The notes beneath the pieces are model-generated. The model did no database searches. It was not told the DNA's origin and saw only the letters and a program-made list of their open reading frames with translations. Of a stretch of DNA of 64,000 bases, positions 43,351 to 51,207 are shown piece by piece. Numbering within the stretch: position 1 is the first letter of the stretch; each line of letters starts with the position of its first letter. Position numbers and translations under genes: made by a program. This DNA comes from Siderastrea radians (Eukaryota > Cnidaria > Anthozoa > Scleractinia > Rhizangiidae), in the NCBI GenBank assembly GCA_964017195.1, contig OZ024895.1:16844034-16908033 (forward strand), in the 5' to 3' direction.

Positions 43351-44514
43351 GGTTGTGTTTGCAAAATAATACGCAGTTTGAAAGTTGGCCTAAATATAGT
43401 CCAACTTCCGTTTAAACCATTGTCACGTGGTTTTACAAAATTTCTGAAGGGTTCTATGACACTAAACAATTCACTCATCTGAAGGTCAAACTTAACATCT
43501 CCTTCTCACTTCTAACCCAAATTTAATTAACTGATACCAAAGAAATGGCTGTCAAACCGGCCTCGATGAGATGTATTTTGTCAACCCAACATGAACACCC
43601 GCAGAATGATGTATTTTCATTTGGCTTCCGTTACTTCCAAATGCGGGTAGCTACGATTTTTGTATGGCCCAAGATGTAAGATTTTTGAAGGGCTTTAGGT
43701 CACGTTTTTCAATATGACACGACTTCTGGGAACAGATGACAAACAACTTTGATTGGAGCACAGTTCAAACGTCTGACCCGCAAAAAGGCGTATCCAAAAC
43801 TTCGACCGAGAAAAATCTAGATGCCACTACCATCTTAGGGACCGGTCATGATTTATCGCCTGGGGGGGGGCGGAGGATTTAGGGGGGGATCATATGGTTA
43901 TCTGAAGGACTGAGGGGGGGATCAGCCGTTATTGATAGGCGTAAAGGGGGGATCAGACCAAAAAAAAAAGGAATTTTAAGTGGCGGCGGGACCCAGGGGA
44001 GAAGTCTGTAAATACTTTGGTAAGGATGTGCCGCTGGGACTCTAAAACCCCAACCCTATTCAAGTCCACGTTTAGCTGTATTTTGTAACTCTATTCTAGC
44101 CTAGACACAAAACCCATACCTTACCTCAGACCAGCTATTTTGTAGAAACAGTATCACTATCGTAGTTCAACATACGCTAAAACAATATATGACAAAAGCA
44201 ACATTTCAAAGTTTTATTCATGGATCGTCATAAATAATATAAAACATGTCAATTTATCGCCTCCTTTTGACGTAAACCTGCTATTTTTTATTTTTGTCTC
44301 TGTTTCTCTCTTATATTCAGGTACCATCTATTGAAATTAGATAGGTAATCAACTTTTGTGTATGTAGTATTCTAATGATAATAGCTCGAAATTATTTCAT
44401 AACGTTTCAATTTTTTTCAATAGAGAATCATAATGGGAATGTTCAGCCACAAGAAAAATAAACATATATCAAAAAGTGTTCGCGAATTCATTCTGGTAAT
44501 AATGTGTGAAGTGT

Positions 44515-45623
44515 TCATTCTGGTGACACTGATTCGCTATCCTGACCCCCTAACGCTTCTCTGGCAGACTCTTCCGCAGCCTTCTCTACTGGCTCTTGCA
44601 CAGCCTCCTCGTCAGATTCATCGGAATCCTCACCCGAGCCTGACCCTTTACCATCACCATTACCATTTCCTTCGTTCATACTGGCCACTACTACTTCCAT
44701 GTTTCGTGCTAGGTCTGTGTCAAAAACGCCTTTTTCCATCAGCCATAATAGAGGGTCCAGGTGGAGACGCCTAACAAATTTCCCGGTAAATTCTGCGTTG
44801 ATGCTTGAGACGCTTGTAAAATTCCTATTGTTTTCGAGTGAATCGAAAATTTCATCAGTTACCTCTTTTGAGGTAAGTTTTTCTAGGAGCATATATGCTC
44901 GCTGATGTAGTCTTTTCTCCTTAGTTTTTTTCACCTTTCTTTTGTTTTCTTTTTTTCTTCGCGATTGGCGATTGTTTCCCATGCGAGATGGAAACTTCCT
45001 CTTCAGGCTCATGAAGGTTGTTGTGAGCGTATTGGAGGCTTTCTGCAGCTCTTCGTATATCGCCTTTACTCGCTCTTGAGCTTCCTGAAAATATTTGAGC
45101 TCATCACTAGCGAACGGCTTCAGGTTATGCTCTTCTGTAAATAGGTTCTTTCGCTTGTTGTCGATGAATGACAACAAATCGGCTGCTGAATTAAAGGCGT
45201 CATTAACAGTGGTCAAGCAGGACTCACACTTCGCGACGTCATCACTGCCCTTACAGCCATCCACGCCTGAGATGAACTTGTTGATGTTTTGACACACTCC
45301 CCACTTCTCATTTCTCAGCAGGTTGGTTTCTTTATCGGACAGGGCTTTAATCTTTATGTTTAACTGCCAACGCATTTGCTGTTGCTCAAGAAGATACTGT
45401 TTGAAACCGGCTTGTTTACTTACAAAAGAAGATTCATAAATCTGCTGAACAATACTATTATAAAATTTCAGCCTATCGGTATGTGGGTTGGGAAGGAGAT
45501 ATTTTTCCCATGGCTCCTTTTCTGGTGCTGCTGATTCGTTCCTTAGGACTTGTAGCTGCCCGGAGCGTCCAAGTGACAAAATCGCTTGCTTGCGCTTCTT
45601 GGGAGCACTGGCGGACGTAACAC
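44515..45623 (-). CDS. SAM-domain transposon protein, exon 2
   Basis: It enters in phase 1 after an acceptor ending TCGGCAG and runs 369 codons to TGA. The first residues contain PKKRKQ, a classical monopartite nuclear localisation signal. The body is mainly helical with a Lys/Arg-rich block (about residues 215-240 of this exon) and two close cysteine pairs (CKGSDDVAKCESC). The C-terminus is Gly/Ser/Glu/Asp-rich and acidic. A minus-strand AATAAA lies about 300 bp downstream (44213-44218). Together with exon 1 it makes a 442-residue nuclear protein, probably a partner or regulator of the transposase. That role is inferred from linkage and the shared promoter. Confidence 0.75.
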
Positions 45624-45813
45624 CTGCCGATCACATTAGAAATGTTTGTCATTACACAATCATAGTATAAAGTATTGTATGAAGTATTGCGTTACGATGC
45701 ACCATGTTGCGTTACGTTTTTTAGATTTTTCATGGCTGGCTTGAAGTGAGGCACAAGCCATTTATTTAGAGGTCTTCAAAATAACCAGCTTATAAACATT
45801 TTAAACTAAATAC

Positions 45814-46033
45814 CTTCACTGCTTGCACCTCTTTGTTTTGATTCATCTTGTATCTGAGCGAAGAAACGCCTCAGACGGCGAGTTTGTATCTTAGTTAATC
45901 CAATGTCTTTCTCAAGAGTTTCGTCATCAACGTCCAGGAAATGCTCGACCTTTGCAACACCAATTTGTTGAAAATTTTCTGTGTAATTGGTCAAGTCAGC
46001 TTTTGTTAAAAGATAGTCAATTTCTCTATCCAT
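45814..46033 (-). CDS. SAM-domain transposon protein, exon 1
   Basis: 73 codons from an ATG at 46033 to a GTATTT donor, leaving in phase 1, which matches exon 2. Residues 5-63 resemble a sterile alpha motif: a leading YLL helix, hydrophobic ENF and FLDVDDETL segments, then GLTKIQTRRLRRFF, typical of the SAM fifth helix. SAM domains mediate protein oligomerisation and sometimes RNA binding. Placement at the N-terminus before a nuclear signal suggests a self-associating accessory factor of the element. Confidence 0.75.
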
Positions 46034-46221
46034 TAAAAAGGCTTAATGAAAGCAAGTCAGCGCAGTTATAAAACGAGTTATGTGTCCACGTTTGATGGTA
46101 TCGGCTTGCATGTCAAAGTTTTATATGTCACAACAATAAAGTTAATATGTCACAACAATAAAGCATTATTTAATATATATGGTTAGCGCGCTGCGGAGAT
46201 TTCAGACATTGGAAAGCAAGG
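46034..46221. promoter_or_regulatory. 188 bp divergent promoter of the transposon
   Basis: This is the region between the two start codons. It contains a direct repeat ATATGTCACAACAATAAAG (46121-46139 and 46143-46161) and an A/T-rich TTTAATATATATGG box ahead of the transposase exon. Both genes must start here unless they have undetected upstream exons. Confidence 0.55.
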
Positions 46222-46389
46222 ATGGAAGACATGACAGAAAAGCTTAGCAATCTGGACGACAAAGGCGATCGGTTTGGACAGCATTTGGATTTAAGTGTTG
46301 GAAGTACCCAAAAACGAGGCCATAACGAAAAGCGAAGTGAGCGAAGGGCGAGAACTAAGCGCCTTGTATCAGATATCGACAACGACCAG
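46222..46389 (+). CDS. Putative transposase, exon 1
   Basis: 56 codons from an ATG at 46222 to a GTAAAT donor, phase 0. It is rich in Lys and Arg (QKRGHNEKRSERRARTKR), a likely nuclear signal. The next acceptor in phase 0 is at 47366, after TTTTAACTTCTTCAG, giving a 977 bp intron. The exon is inferred from start codon, frame and splice-site agreement rather than from homology. Confidence 0.6.
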
Positions 46390-47366
46390 GTAAATAAATG
46401 ATGAAGAAATACAAAGCTATTAAATGTTGTCTGACGTTTCGATGTTACTAAAACCACGACGAAGGAAAAAAAGTAACAGTTTCTTCGTAGTTCGAATGTA
46501 AAGTAATGAGTGAAAACTGTATAATACACATGCAATAGTAATATCAACATTGAAACGTCGAAATGTCGCGCGGACATTAATCATACTTAAAGAGATACTT
46601 TGTATTTGAAGACTGTAAATCCTGGTATCTGTGGTACTAAAATTTAGATAGGACTGTTCCCATCTGAATGACCTCCTTATAATTTGCAGGTCAAAGGTAG
46701 ATATGTTAAACTATGCTTACAATTATTAAACTTTACTTAAAACGGCAATGTGACACTGCCATAAATAAAACCGGCGGATCGGTGTGCGTCAAATGCAGAC
46801 TACAGTCCATCAGACTTCTCAGATTACCTTTAATATTACAGCGAAATTAACGCGATTTAAATTAACGCAAAGTGAAGGGAAAATACTTTCCTATAAAAAA
46901 AGGAAATCGAAAGATTTCAAACTTAAGAAAATTAACGCGACCTCACAAAGAAACGGAACTTGTAGAAACAATAGGAACAAATTTATTGTAACACACTGTC
47001 AACATGTTAACAAAATACTAAACTCAAACGAATTTCGCTACTTCGAGCGTTCTTTGCAGCGCCAACGATACCGGTGGAACTCCACCCTGATATAAAAACA
47101 ATGCTAAAAAAAATCCAACTTAATTATTGAGAATAAGGCGAGTCCGCGCCAGCGCTTTTCGCAGCTCGCGGTTTCGCCGCTCGCTACAAGATCTAGACCG
47201 CGTCGCACGCAGTCTAGTCTGCAGTTGTCGCGCACCTATGCCTTCCTGGGTGAATCGTTAATATTCATTTCTCAAGCCCATAGTTTCATTAAAAAATATT
47301 TAAGATGTGTAAATAACTGTGAATTTTTCGATCTATAAAGACGTTATTACCTTTTAACTTCTTCAG

Positions 47367-50300
47367 GGAAAAAAGAAGATGGTGATTCTAAAATCTCAAC
47401 AAAGCTGCACTCTAGAGCAAAATAGGGGTATTATTGAGGAAGAATTATCGAGAGCAATTTCAGAGGAAAAAAAGCACAAATTTCAAGGTCTGCTCTATGT
47501 CTTAGATCAACTTTTCCTTCCGGTGCAAGATGCCAATGCTAAAACACGAATTAAGTCTTCAATCTCCTTTGAAGAAGCACTGGAGTACTTTCTCGCGTTT
47601 CAACCTCTTCACTCTGGGGCACCGACAAAATATCAGAGAGTTGCCTTTCGCGAAGCTTTACTTCATGAAAAACATGGTCTCAGGATCAATATCATTCGCA
47701 TAAGTGAGGGTTTCGAGTATATCGCACTCCGTCCTGACAAAGTCGATTTGGAGTGGTTGCTTTTGGATATTTTTAGTGCATGTGGTACCAAAAGTGGAAA
47801 TAGTGCTCTTGTTCTTGATAAGGAAACCGTGCAAGGTATCGTTTCTACTATGGACTCAGAATGGGATAAAATTTGTCTTAGAGTTATTTTGCGATCAATA
47901 TACTCTAGGGAAGAAATGATAGTCCTAGGCTTCGATCCTGACAATCTTCCGTCAATGACGGAGAGAGTTAAATTCGTAGTTGAAGAGGTAAAAAATGCTA
48001 ATGAGGCGGCAGCCGACCTTGTTAGGTTGCGCTTAAATTCCAAGAAGGAAAAGCTAGAGAAGGAGATAAAAGAGAAGGAAAACCTTTATCAAAAGAAAAC
48101 AAGTATCTGGTCATCCAAAACGTTACAAGAAATCCAAAGCGAAGTACAAAAACTCAAGGAAAAAGTTAAAGACACGGAGGGGCTTCTTCACTGCGACCCC
48201 ACCGATAGTAATTATCAGAGAAAACGCCAAATGCTGAAGCGCCAAGCTTCAAGCCTTATCGAATGTAATCGACTAAAGAGGCGAAAGTTGTCAAACCAAG
48301 GTCCAAAGCTCCAGCTAGATGAGGAAGATGAAGAATTTATTGCAAAGGCAATTGAGGATAAATCATCTTATCATGGTAGACGGCATGATACGGTCCTCTA
48401 TACCGGCCAGAGGGTGAAGAAAAAAAACCTTCTTTCAATAGCCAACTACCGACTAGCTCAACGTGGGAAGAAGTTAATTAAATCCGCTACAACAGTGTAC
48501 AACAGGGCTAGACCGAGAAACAAAAGAAGTCTCCAAGCGAAGCGCCATTGTGGAAAAGGCCTTTTTTGTTGGAAAAAGCCACCAAAAGGCGAAGAGAACA
48601 CAAACGAAAACACTCACTACCAGCGAGCACACGTCAAAAACATAAAAAGACGATTCTGGGGTGCCCGAAATTCCAGCGCGAGAAAGTTTTGCTTCATGAG
48701 AAGCACCGATGATAAGGCCTACCTTAGACCAGGTACATCTGAAGGTTTTGACAAAGCCAGAATTCTTAGGATCTTGACAATATCAGATCACTCTAAAGCA
48801 AGGAAGTTGCCAAAGTACGACTGGCCTGAGAAAATGGTATATGTGACTCCGGGTTCTCACCGTGTTTTCACGAAGTCTAGTGTAATGAATGAAAGTGAAG
48901 AAAAGCTGATAACTGAGGAGGATCGGCATTATGTATTTGTCCGGCCCAAGGCAATAGTGGGATCGTCAGGCACTGTATGGGCCAGCGAAACGCTCCGTTT
49001 GCGATATGAGGATCCATTAGCTTTTGAGGTTGACGAACTGACACCCGGCAGTCCACAGTATTCACTGGGATTTCGTAAATGCTGCGCGCGACTACACGAT
49101 GACCTCTTTCTTTATTATGATATGACAGAGTCAGATGACCTAGACAACATAACCGGAGAAACAGAAAGTAACTGTAAATTCTTCACTTATGAAAAAGAGA
49201 GAGTGAAACACTTGAAATTGAGGATTGATAATTTGCTGCAGTTTTGCGAGGACACAGAAATGTCAGAGCACAACAGGGCTCTGTTTGCTAGTCAGATAAT
49301 ACCAGTCACGAAACGCATTTTAGATGCCGTTGATTTGTTTAAAGAAGAAGTTGATTCCATGGAAAAAGATGCGAGAAAGGACAGGATTTTGAAGGTAACT
49401 ACTTCATGTAAACATGGGCTTGAAGTTCTTGGAGATCTCTGCCTTCCACCTGTAAAGTCACGATGGGCTGACCTTACAGATGCTGGTCCGGGCGTTGGGG
49501 TTTCAAACTATGAAGTAAGATTTCGAGACGCTGAGTTAGCAAGGATTCACAATTCCGATTACCGAGTGCGATGTCATCGTTCAAGGGGCGACAGCGGGCA
49601 AGGTGAAGCCGAAAGGACAAACTCGGCAATTTCTGATGCTCTTGTGGATGGCGCAACTCTAGAATGGGAAAAATATAGGAGGTTTGAGGATCTTTCAGAA
49701 GAGGAAATCAAACAAATGTCTCTCCAGTCGTACGAAGAGTACGAAAAGAAACGAATGGAGAAAAATGCCTGGTACGTATGCAGTCAGGTTGCCGAGAGAA
49801 TTGACGATGCCCCTGTCCTTAAAGAATATATCAAGAGTAAAGTGAGTGAGCCCCCTGACGAATTATTCTTTTTCAATTCTGTTTACCTCGATAACTATCG
49901 GGGTGCATCAGAAAGAAACAAAGCAGAAGTGCCTGGTGCAGCATACTTCAGAAAGATCGAATCGTTTGTGGAAGACCACTATATTCGTGGAGAACTCTTT
50001 ATGGAATTCTGTCGTGATGCCTGTAGGGAGTCAAGAGATGGAAGTTCCAATCTCTGTTCTTGGTGTTCTCACAATAGATGGGTCGGACCAGAAACGGAGA
50101 GAATTCCGCAACCTGTGCCAGACCAAAACAATCCTGGACATTTCATGGATGTCTATCAAACGAAATCGACAGGCAGGACACCAGATGACTATCTCCCGAG
50201 AAAATGTCTTAAGGACCTGTATGATAAACATTCTGACAGTATTATAAACGATCGAGATACCATCAAGAGCTTCTGCACAAAATATAATGTCGATGAGAAG

Positions 50301-50759
50301 CATGTTATTACATATGTTAATCATCTGAAGGATATTGATATCAGAAAGGACATAAGAACAAGAGCAGCTGAGGAGCGAAGGAAGCAAGAGGCCGGACGAA
50401 CATATAAGGACTTTCAATGGAACACCCTCATTGAGGGTGGCAAGGTGGAAAAGTTGCGAGTAAGAGAACTTGACTTGTATCTTAACAAGCATGGTTTGAC
50501 TACTGTCGGTCGGAAGCTTGACAAAGTGAAGGCTATTCGATGTCACTATTACCGACACAACAATGAGGATGTAATTGCAGAAGAACTGTCGAGTGATGAA
50601 GATGAAGTGGAATCGGAGGATGAAGAATTCGAAAATGAGGAGGCAGAGAGCGACAATGACTTTGTTTTCGCGGATTTGGATGAACAGAGTAGCCCTTCCA
50701 CGACAATTCAGTTCATATCTGATGAACAAATAACCGCAGTTGTTGTTCAGGGTCCATGA
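47367..50759 (+). CDS. Putative DDE-type transposase with SAP domain, exon 2
   Basis: 1,130 codons plus stop, uninterrupted. With exon 1 the product is 1,186 residues (numbering below). A coiled coil lies at about 265-330 and a basic NLS-like block at 348-365. A RSTDDKAYL strand holds D504/D505. DAGPGVGVSN places D761 at a strand end, and GDSGQGEAERTN puts E803/E805 on the next helix, about 42 residues later, as in DDE RNase H-like transposases. C938, C942, C953, C956 and H958 may bind zinc. Residues 1084-1120 fit a SAP DNA-binding motif, and the tail (about 1128-1160) is acidic. The catalytic triad is inference and no named superfamily is claimed. An ATTAAA lies 33 bases after the stop. Confidence 0.8.
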   Translation, partial: GKKKMVILKSQQSCTLEQNRGIIEEELSRAISEEKKHKFQGLLYVLDQLFLPVQDANAKTRIKSSISFEEALEYFLAFQPLHSGAPTKYQRVAFREALLHEKHGLRINIIRISEGFEYIALRPDKVDLEWLLLDIFSACGTKSGNSALVLDKETVQGIVSTMDSEWDKICLRVILRSIYSREEMIVLGFDPDNLPSMTERVKFVVEEVKNANEAAADLVRLRLNSKKEKLEKEIKEKENLYQKKTSIWSSKTLQEIQSEVQKLKEKVKDTEGLLHCDPTDSNYQRKRQMLKRQASSLIECNRLKRRKLSNQGPKLQLDEEDEEFIAKAIEDKSSYHGRRHDTVLYTGQRVKKKNLLSIANYRLAQRGKKLIKSATTVYNRARPRNKRSLQAKRHCGKGLFCWKKPPKGEENTNENTHYQRAHVKNIKRRFWGARNSSARKFCFMRSTDDKAYLRPGTSEGFDKARILRILTISDHSKARKLPKYDWPEKMVYVTPGSHRVFTKSSVMNESEEKLITEEDRHYVFVRPKAIVGSSGTVWASETLRLRYEDPLAFEVDELTPGSPQYSLGFRKCCARLHDDLFLYYDMTESDDLDNITGETESNCKFFTYEKERVKHLKLRIDNLLQFCEDTEMSEHNRALFASQIIPVTKRILDAVDLFKEEVDSMEKDARKDRILKVTTSCKHGLEVLGDLCLPPVKSRWADLTDAGPGVGVSNYEVRFRDAELARIHNSDYRVRCHRSRGDSGQGEAERTNSAISDALVDGATLEWEKYRRFEDLSEEEIKQMSLQSYEEYEKKRMEKNAWYVCSQVAERIDDAPVLKEYIKSKVSEPPDELFFFNSVYLDNYRGASERNKAEVPGAAYFRKIESFVEDHYIRGELFMEFCRDACRESRDGSSNLCSWCSHNRWVGPETERIPQPVPDQNNPGHFMDVYQTKSTGRTPDDYLPRKCLKDLYDKHSDSIINDRDTIKSFCTKYNVDEKHVITYVNHLKDIDIRKDIRTRAAEERRKQEAGRTYKDFQWNTLIEGGKVEKLRVRELDLYLNKHGLTTVGRKLDKVKAIRCHYYRHNNEDVIAEELSSDEDEVESEDEEFENEEAESDNDFVFADLDEQSSPSTTIQFISDEQITAVVVQGP

Positions 50760-50801
50760 GACGTAAGTACCATTATAGATATCACTTGCATATTAAAGTA
50801 T

Positions 50802-50830
50802 GGGGTAAGGGTAAGGGTAAGGGTAAGGGG
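50802..50830 (+). repeat. Short GGGTAA tandem repeat
   Basis: About four GGGTAA units just downstream of the transposase gene. The unit differs from the telomere unit TTAGGG. Confidence 0.8.
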
Positions 50831-51207
50831 AGGGGGTGGTGTTAGTTTCGTCCTTTTTATCATTCTATTTTTAATGGGTGAGATAAATTTTATATACTTT
50901 TAATAGCATATACTTTAGTGTATTTTAATTTTAAGTCCTACGTTTTATACATGAGTCTCTGGCTCGAACATTGAGGGAGACCTCGTCCCACGTATGGGCA
51001 TTAAAATTGTATTCTATTGTATATTTTATTGTAAACTGTCATTTTTCGGTGGCTGTGAGAGGAGGGGGGGATCATGAAACCCTCCACTACCGATAAGGGG
51101 GATCATCAAAAAACTAAATACTTTACGGGGGGATCAGGTAAATCCTACGGTGTAGCAACGAAAATACTCCGCACCCCCCCAGGCGATAAATAATGACCGG
51201 TCCCTTA

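Follow-up and report, generated by a model that had tools for sequence, protein, structure and literature searches.

Here we describe a 7,367-bp element in a 64,000-nt window of the genome of the coral Siderastrea radians (contig OZ024895.1) that is very probably an autonomous, recently mobile, two-gene cut-and-paste DDE transposon, from an animal superfamily that we could match to no named one and that carries hints of ISAzo13/Zator. Its repeated ends, target duplications, empty sites and near-identical copies identify it as a complete, recently moved DNA transposon; a first-pass annotation of the window had proposed an apparently intact one here. Its bounds are as follows (positions count from the first letter of the window).

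43838..51204, + strand: the whole transposon of 7,367 bp (supported by its inverted ends, a TTA duplication, an empty site and copies ~99% identical to it)
43835..43837: TTA, the target-site duplication on the left
51205..51207: TTA, its counterpart on the right
43838..43880, + strand: left terminal inverted repeat, starting GGGACCGGTCAT, with 40/43 bases matching the right end
51162..51204, - strand: right terminal inverted repeat
43884..43955, + strand: left subterminal array, three GGGGGATCA at 43884, 43916 and 43947
51066..51136, + strand: right subterminal array, three GGGGGATCA at 51066, 51097 and 51128, on the same strand as the left array

The 43-nt repeats inside the element belong to inverted arms of 44 nt (43837-43880 and 51162-51205, 93% complementary), one base of which falls within the duplication, and the motifs of each array are spaced 31-32 nt apart. 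Matching termini, a TTA duplication outside both ends and subterminal motif arrays had all been claimed for this copy, and all three hold.

The termini are not unique to the window. A 30-nt terminus pattern matches the 804.8-Mb host genome exactly at 31 places, counting the two ends in the window, compared with 0 for a reversed control. Among 20 host loci taken around these matches, 13 were two-ended with the same TTA or TAA flank on each side, six were single-ended within the stretch and one, L017, was the sole two-ended locus with unequal flanks. Together with the window copy, the two-ended insertions (n = 15) comprise seven with TTA, seven with TAA and one mismatch, so that 14/15 carry a perfect 3-bp duplication. 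A 2-bp TA duplication, as in Tc1/mariner, and a 4-bp TTAA duplication, as in Kolobok/piggyBac, were therefore both rejected, the duplication being a 3-bp TTA or TAA and the empty site holding a single TTA. That empty site, for which the first-pass annotation had suggested looking, emerged when the window flanks were joined with one TTA: the joined sequence matches C9:16767628-16767879 at 94% across the junction, with 39/41 junction bases identical and no gap. The joined flanks of a second insertion, L018, match six other places at 71-75%, every one spanning the junction; all four of those inspected are gap-free there, with CTA versus TTA in L018.

Near-identical copies are numerous. Over aligned pieces >1 kb, the full-length copies share 98.5-99.5% identity with the window copy, and a protein search against the host genome, giving minimum counts, returned at least 42 rows, 18 of which represent 11 near-identical copies by our own count, window included, the remaining 24/42 being 34-77% identical. 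Transposase exon 2 is open over its full length in three of the 11, exon 1 is 94-98% identical across the 10 other copies, and the second exon of the partner gene is stop-free in 7/10 matching copies. Four shorter elements, L019, L020 and L028 (~2.3 kb) and L017 (5.2 kb), have in common with the window element only the terminal repeats plus, at one end, roughly the outermost 115 bp, and look non-autonomous.

Several of these loci have features of their own. The related 5.2-kb element L017 (G000:C2:13761138-13769138) has flanks TAA versus CAA. Two single-ended matches, L023 and L024 (G000:C7), share an identical outer flank, TGAAGAAATTAA, and are probably one insertion copied along with its surroundings. 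Parts of the window element's own flanks recur on the same contig (G000:C9:16767628, 16807198 and 16919934), and the insertion therefore lies within a local repeat or duplicated region.

The element encodes two divergent genes, a transposase and a partner, laid out as follows; transposase residue numbers count from the M at 47379, with 60 to be added for the spliced protein.

46222..46389, + strand: transposase exon 1, 56 aa (gene model; conserved in copies)
47367..50759, + strand: transposase exon 2 with stop, coding part 47367-50756
47937..48266, + strand: long-helix, coiled-coil-like region, residues 187-296 (predicted structure)
48690..49643, + strand: RNase H-like DDE core, residues 438-755 (predicted structure)
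48708-48710, 49479-49481 and 49611-49613, + strand: catalytic candidates D444, D701 and E745 (predicted structure, conservation)
49014..49448, + strand: helical bundle inserted into the core, residues 546-690 (predicted structure)
50022..50141, + strand: conserved Cys/His cluster C882, C893, C896 and H921 (row conservation)
50418..50561, + strand: SAP-like C-terminal domain, residues 1014-1061 (Pfam SAP in relatives, model helices)
45814..46033, - strand: partner exon 1, SAM domain (SAM_TNK E 6.5e-9, above cut-off; gene model)
44515..45623, - strand: partner exon 2 with stop, lysine-rich protein with acidic tail, coding part 45623-44518 (gene model, relatives)

As the first-pass annotation had it, both genes are spliced and intact: each has one intron and an open frame, giving a stop-free transposase of 1,186 aa and a partner of 442 aa, with splice sites inferred from sequence in both genes and other splice pairs likewise keeping the frame open. 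The transposase core is predicted to adopt an RNase H-like DDE fold split by a helical bundle; the model's topology fits such a core, and its three candidate catalytic residues are near-invariant, conserved among the rows with a residue at that place in 106/109 (D444), 74/76 (D701) and 69/70 (E745), with 43 residues between D701 and E745. The proposed coiled coil reappears as long coiled-coil-like helices in the predicted model, and the Cys/His cluster is conserved across relatives (C882 in 51/51 rows, C893 in 44/47, C896 in 46/49 and H921 in 41/46). A SAP-like end is suggested by Pfam SAP in 4/46 transposase relatives (best E 0.0014) and by the model helices, but the score shown falls below the Pfam cut-off. 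A profile comparison with the PDB gave two chains over this end (E 0.15-0.23), which we take to be SAP proteins; the other transposase matches in the PDB by sequence were a CENP-O chain (E 0.07) and chance matches.

The partner appears, from sequence comparison, to combine a conserved lysine-rich core with a variable N-terminal part, which is SAM in two families and something else in others. A relative of it is encoded in 3/3 divergent elements tested (L151, L152 and L153, described below): the core matches by tblastn in L152 (1.7e-27) and L151 (4e-14), and by profile only in L153 (hhalign 94%, E 1.2e-7; tblastn not significant). The N terminus of the L152 partner is likewise SAM (E 2.4e-10), and scanning of the frames found no SAM domain in the L151 and L153 partners. 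Myb had no match at E<=0.1 in the window and L152 partners, nor in another five partner proteins or pieces of them. A protein search with partner exon 2 returned 26 relatives, one of them named (Oculina). Adjoining the partner core in L151 is an open frame (L151:6761-7228:+) with no Pfam match above chance, which is not SAM and may be the N-terminal part of that partner. In L153 (G000:C2:33223300-33233299) the partner and transposase lie on the same strand and the end arrays face the opposite way; the coding block therefore seems rearranged relative to the ends.

Relatives of the transposase occur in corals, an anemone, mussels (Mytilus), an acorn worm and amphioxus, and none were found in viral contigs. 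From the protein-search list we fetched five divergent host loci (L151, C8, L152, C220 and L153; C8 and C220 as end pieces only), which are 36-45% identical to the window protein. In two end searches, one demanding TWA flanks and the other not, all five proved to carry inverted ends that start with GGGA, flanked by a matching TWA duplication. Their ends and subterminal arrays, with array positions counted from the two ends, compare with the window element as follows.

Window: array GGGGGATCA at 46, 78, 109 and -139, -108, -77
L151 (C4): ends 23/24 bases, TAA; array GGGGGG at 45, 77, 109 and -153, -121
C8: ends 24/24 bases, TTA; array CCCCCC at 136 and -117, -86, -54, shown with the transposase on the - strand
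L152 (C7): ends 23/24 bases, TAA; array CGGG, listed jointly for C7 and C220, at 48, 79, 112 and -139, -107, -75
C220: ends 24/24 bases, TTA; array as for C7
L153 (C2): ends 22/24 bases, TAA; array CCCTC at 71, 105, 137 and -117, -86, -53, on the opposite strand relative to the transposase

Three end types are seen among these loci, L151 with C8, L152 with C220, and L153. The motif letters vary between elements, but the repeats stay some 31-34 nt apart and point the same way at both ends, the short motifs having been chosen by eye and the arrays of the divergent relatives carrying no significance test; these relatives have shared inverted 8-mers as well. Such arrays may be bound along a single face of the DNA helix, and their like orientation would make the one end distinguishable from the other. 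A 33-row tree places L153 beside Branchiostoma (100/99), L151 beside P0013 and the window protein beside P0003 (100/100 for each of the latter two); support is weak (75/85) at the fork next to the root as drawn, and 9/30 inner branches are unresolved. From these groupings, the transposon lineages in the S. radians genome are either old or have moved between hosts.

Other relatives differ in length or in domain content. A 4.76-kb relative with perfect ends (L166/L177/L167, G000:C8:45134514-45139268) may lack the length to hold an intact partner gene. In two transposase relatives, P0037 (E 9.6e-9) and P0041 (E 3.6e-8), the C-terminal part holds a PHD finger. The Stylophora protein P0011, named TRP channel A1, is 89% identical to the transposase over 52% of the query, so that its name looks like a mis-annotation or the product of a merged gene model.

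Taken together, these features suggest how the element might move. The + strand gene would supply a DDE transposase, with D444, D701 and E745 in an RNase H-like core split by the helical bundle. This enzyme may bind both the inverted ends, which start with GGGA, and the phased repeats inside them, whose 31-34-nt period is about three helical turns, then cut the element out and insert it into a TWA target with a stagger of 3 bp; the partner protein may assist in binding the ends or in pairing them. A remote link of the lineage to ISAzo13/Zator, within the wider IS630-Tc1-mariner assemblage, is hinted at by the catalytic motifs.

The element is real, young and autonomous-looking, and it belongs to a coherent lineage of animal elements whose ends have an architecture of their own. 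Repbase sorts eukaryotic DNA transposons into 24 superfamilies, according to the part of PMC12730594 consulted. We lean, by a modest degree, towards an undescribed animal superfamily, present in cnidarians, molluscs, hemichordates and cephalochordates and defined by GGGA ends, TWA 3-bp duplications, same-orientation phased arrays, a split DDE core and a second protein. The first-pass annotation had likewise called the superfamily unrecognised, and its suggested profile search returned 0 Pfam families for the window transposase at E<=10. Scans of Pfam and NCBIfam gave no transposase model among the families listed, which for 46 relatives against Pfam were 25 of 68. In the literature, judged by titles and abstract starts, we recognised no description of such an element, and a search with the string GGGACCGGTCA gave papers unrelated by title. 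New-superfamily status is the likeliest reading and not proven, Repbase, Zator and Academ proteins lying outside the direct comparison.

Two results limit this assignment. Foldseek, run with the whole transposase model and with the core, gave no significant match, a limit on the predicted DDE core. The other concerns novelty: when D444, D701 and E745 were fixed as anchors and excluded from the score, the blocks flanking them resembled those of ISAzo13 with z 4.5 (0/2000 column permutations), in a test built post hoc, after the motifs had been seen, and with a result that depends on D444. Host Tc1-like proteins reached z 2.3 and ISAzo13 versus Tc1 z 2.0; all 12 shifted registers stayed at |z| <1.8, a free block scan did not select the register, and with D445 as the first anchor ISAzo13 drops to 2.3 and Tc1 climbs to 3.0. 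These motifs make it plausible that the family has a distant connection with ISAzo13 and, by that route, with its eukaryotic kin Zator.

Membership of a known Repbase family that merely seems new, most likely Zator or Academ, is the alternative to be taken most seriously, possible though on balance unlikely. The 3-bp duplications that Zator and ISAzo13 both produce (PMC10045372, in the portion consulted) and the ISAzo13-like anchored motifs favour it, as do the reports of Zator and Academ in bivalves (PMC10294476, as excerpted), given relatives of the element in Mytilus. Against Zator, the Pfam model PF07592, which matches 8/8 ISAzo13 proteins at E 5e-115 or better, is silent on the window protein and absent among the families listed for the 46 relatives; it is silent in the host genome too, as it is in control genomes. 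A profile built from 45 ISAzo13 proteins (46 found in 80 of 118 loci) gave no significant hhalign match (probability 0.1%), and with the insertion removed the alignment, still not significant, yet passes the second Asp and the Glu in order. Comparison with a Tc1 profile was not significant. As a yardstick, ISAzo13 against Tc1 reached 19% probability, over DNA-binding helices, and the profile method is therefore weak across superfamilies. Academ elements have 3-4-bp duplications and XPG/helicase domains, XPG marking some of them; no XPG domain was found in the window's proteins.

A highly diverged PIF/Harbinger-type element, with two genes, G-rich ends and 3-bp duplications, is improbable. Harbinger targets TWA, which favours this assignment; the length of the window transposase, more than twice that usual for Harbinger, counts against it. 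Canonical Harbinger gives 3-bp duplications and the related Nuwa elements encode a transposase with a Myb/SANT protein (PMC12730594, in the part consulted), but no Harbinger domain stands among the families listed for the 46 relatives, the window protein has no Pfam match, and the partner bears SAM rather than Myb/SANT. A non-mobile segmental duplication or multicopy host gene family has virtually no probability left: the sequence around the window copy is indeed duplicated locally (with matches ~76 kb upstream of where the window starts and at other places on the contig) and L023 and L024 do share a flank, but copies sit on many contigs with differing flanks and the 3-bp duplication, exact empty sites refute duplication, and in place of a host family with conserved synteny, the outcome named beforehand as refuting, we found 11 near-identical copies at scattered sites and divergent relatives with their own matching ends.

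If a further superfamily is indeed represented here, the tree of DDE transposases would gain a branch that has an intact young copy, a second protein and possible ties to ISAzo13. Many proteins of cnidarians, molluscs and deuterostomes now labelled 'uncharacterized' could then be named by annotators, and the element would offer a two-protein system for probing the role of same-orientation end arrays.

Known systems resemble this family in part. Prokaryotic ISAzo13 has, like it, S-x-D-x-K-x5-G, D-x-G and H-x3-G-x-S-x2-N-x2-E around the candidate catalytic residues, and a 3-bp duplication is common to the family, ISAzo13 and eukaryotic Zator; the window family differs from ISAzo13 in having a second gene and a much bigger protein, which contains a helical insertion, long helices, a Cys/His cluster and a SAP-like end, and in giving no significant profile match. 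The two-protein layout and 3-bp duplications recall PIF/Harbinger and Nuwa (PMC12730594, as consulted), from which the family differs in its SAM-type partner and in showing no sequence match. Motif similarity to host Tc1-like proteins reaches z 2.3 (3.0 with D445 as first Asp), and Mos1 mariner and IS630-Tc1-mariner elements duplicate a 2-bp TA rather than a 3-bp TWA and differ from the family in its helical insertion and the 43 residues between D701 and E745. Zisupton and its relatives (KDZ) likewise have large Cys-rich transposases. Duplications in Zisupton are 8 bp, as against 3 bp here (PMC12730594, same part). Kolobok and piggyBac share the TA-rich target but duplicate a 4-bp TTAA (PMC9587614 and PMC2872659, in the parts consulted), and coral MITEs (miniature inverted-repeat transposable elements) are described as piggyBac-like with TTAA in the latter. 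With DDE cut-and-paste elements in general the family shares terminal inverted repeats and a duplication of fixed length, found at 14/15 insertions and 5/5 divergent loci.

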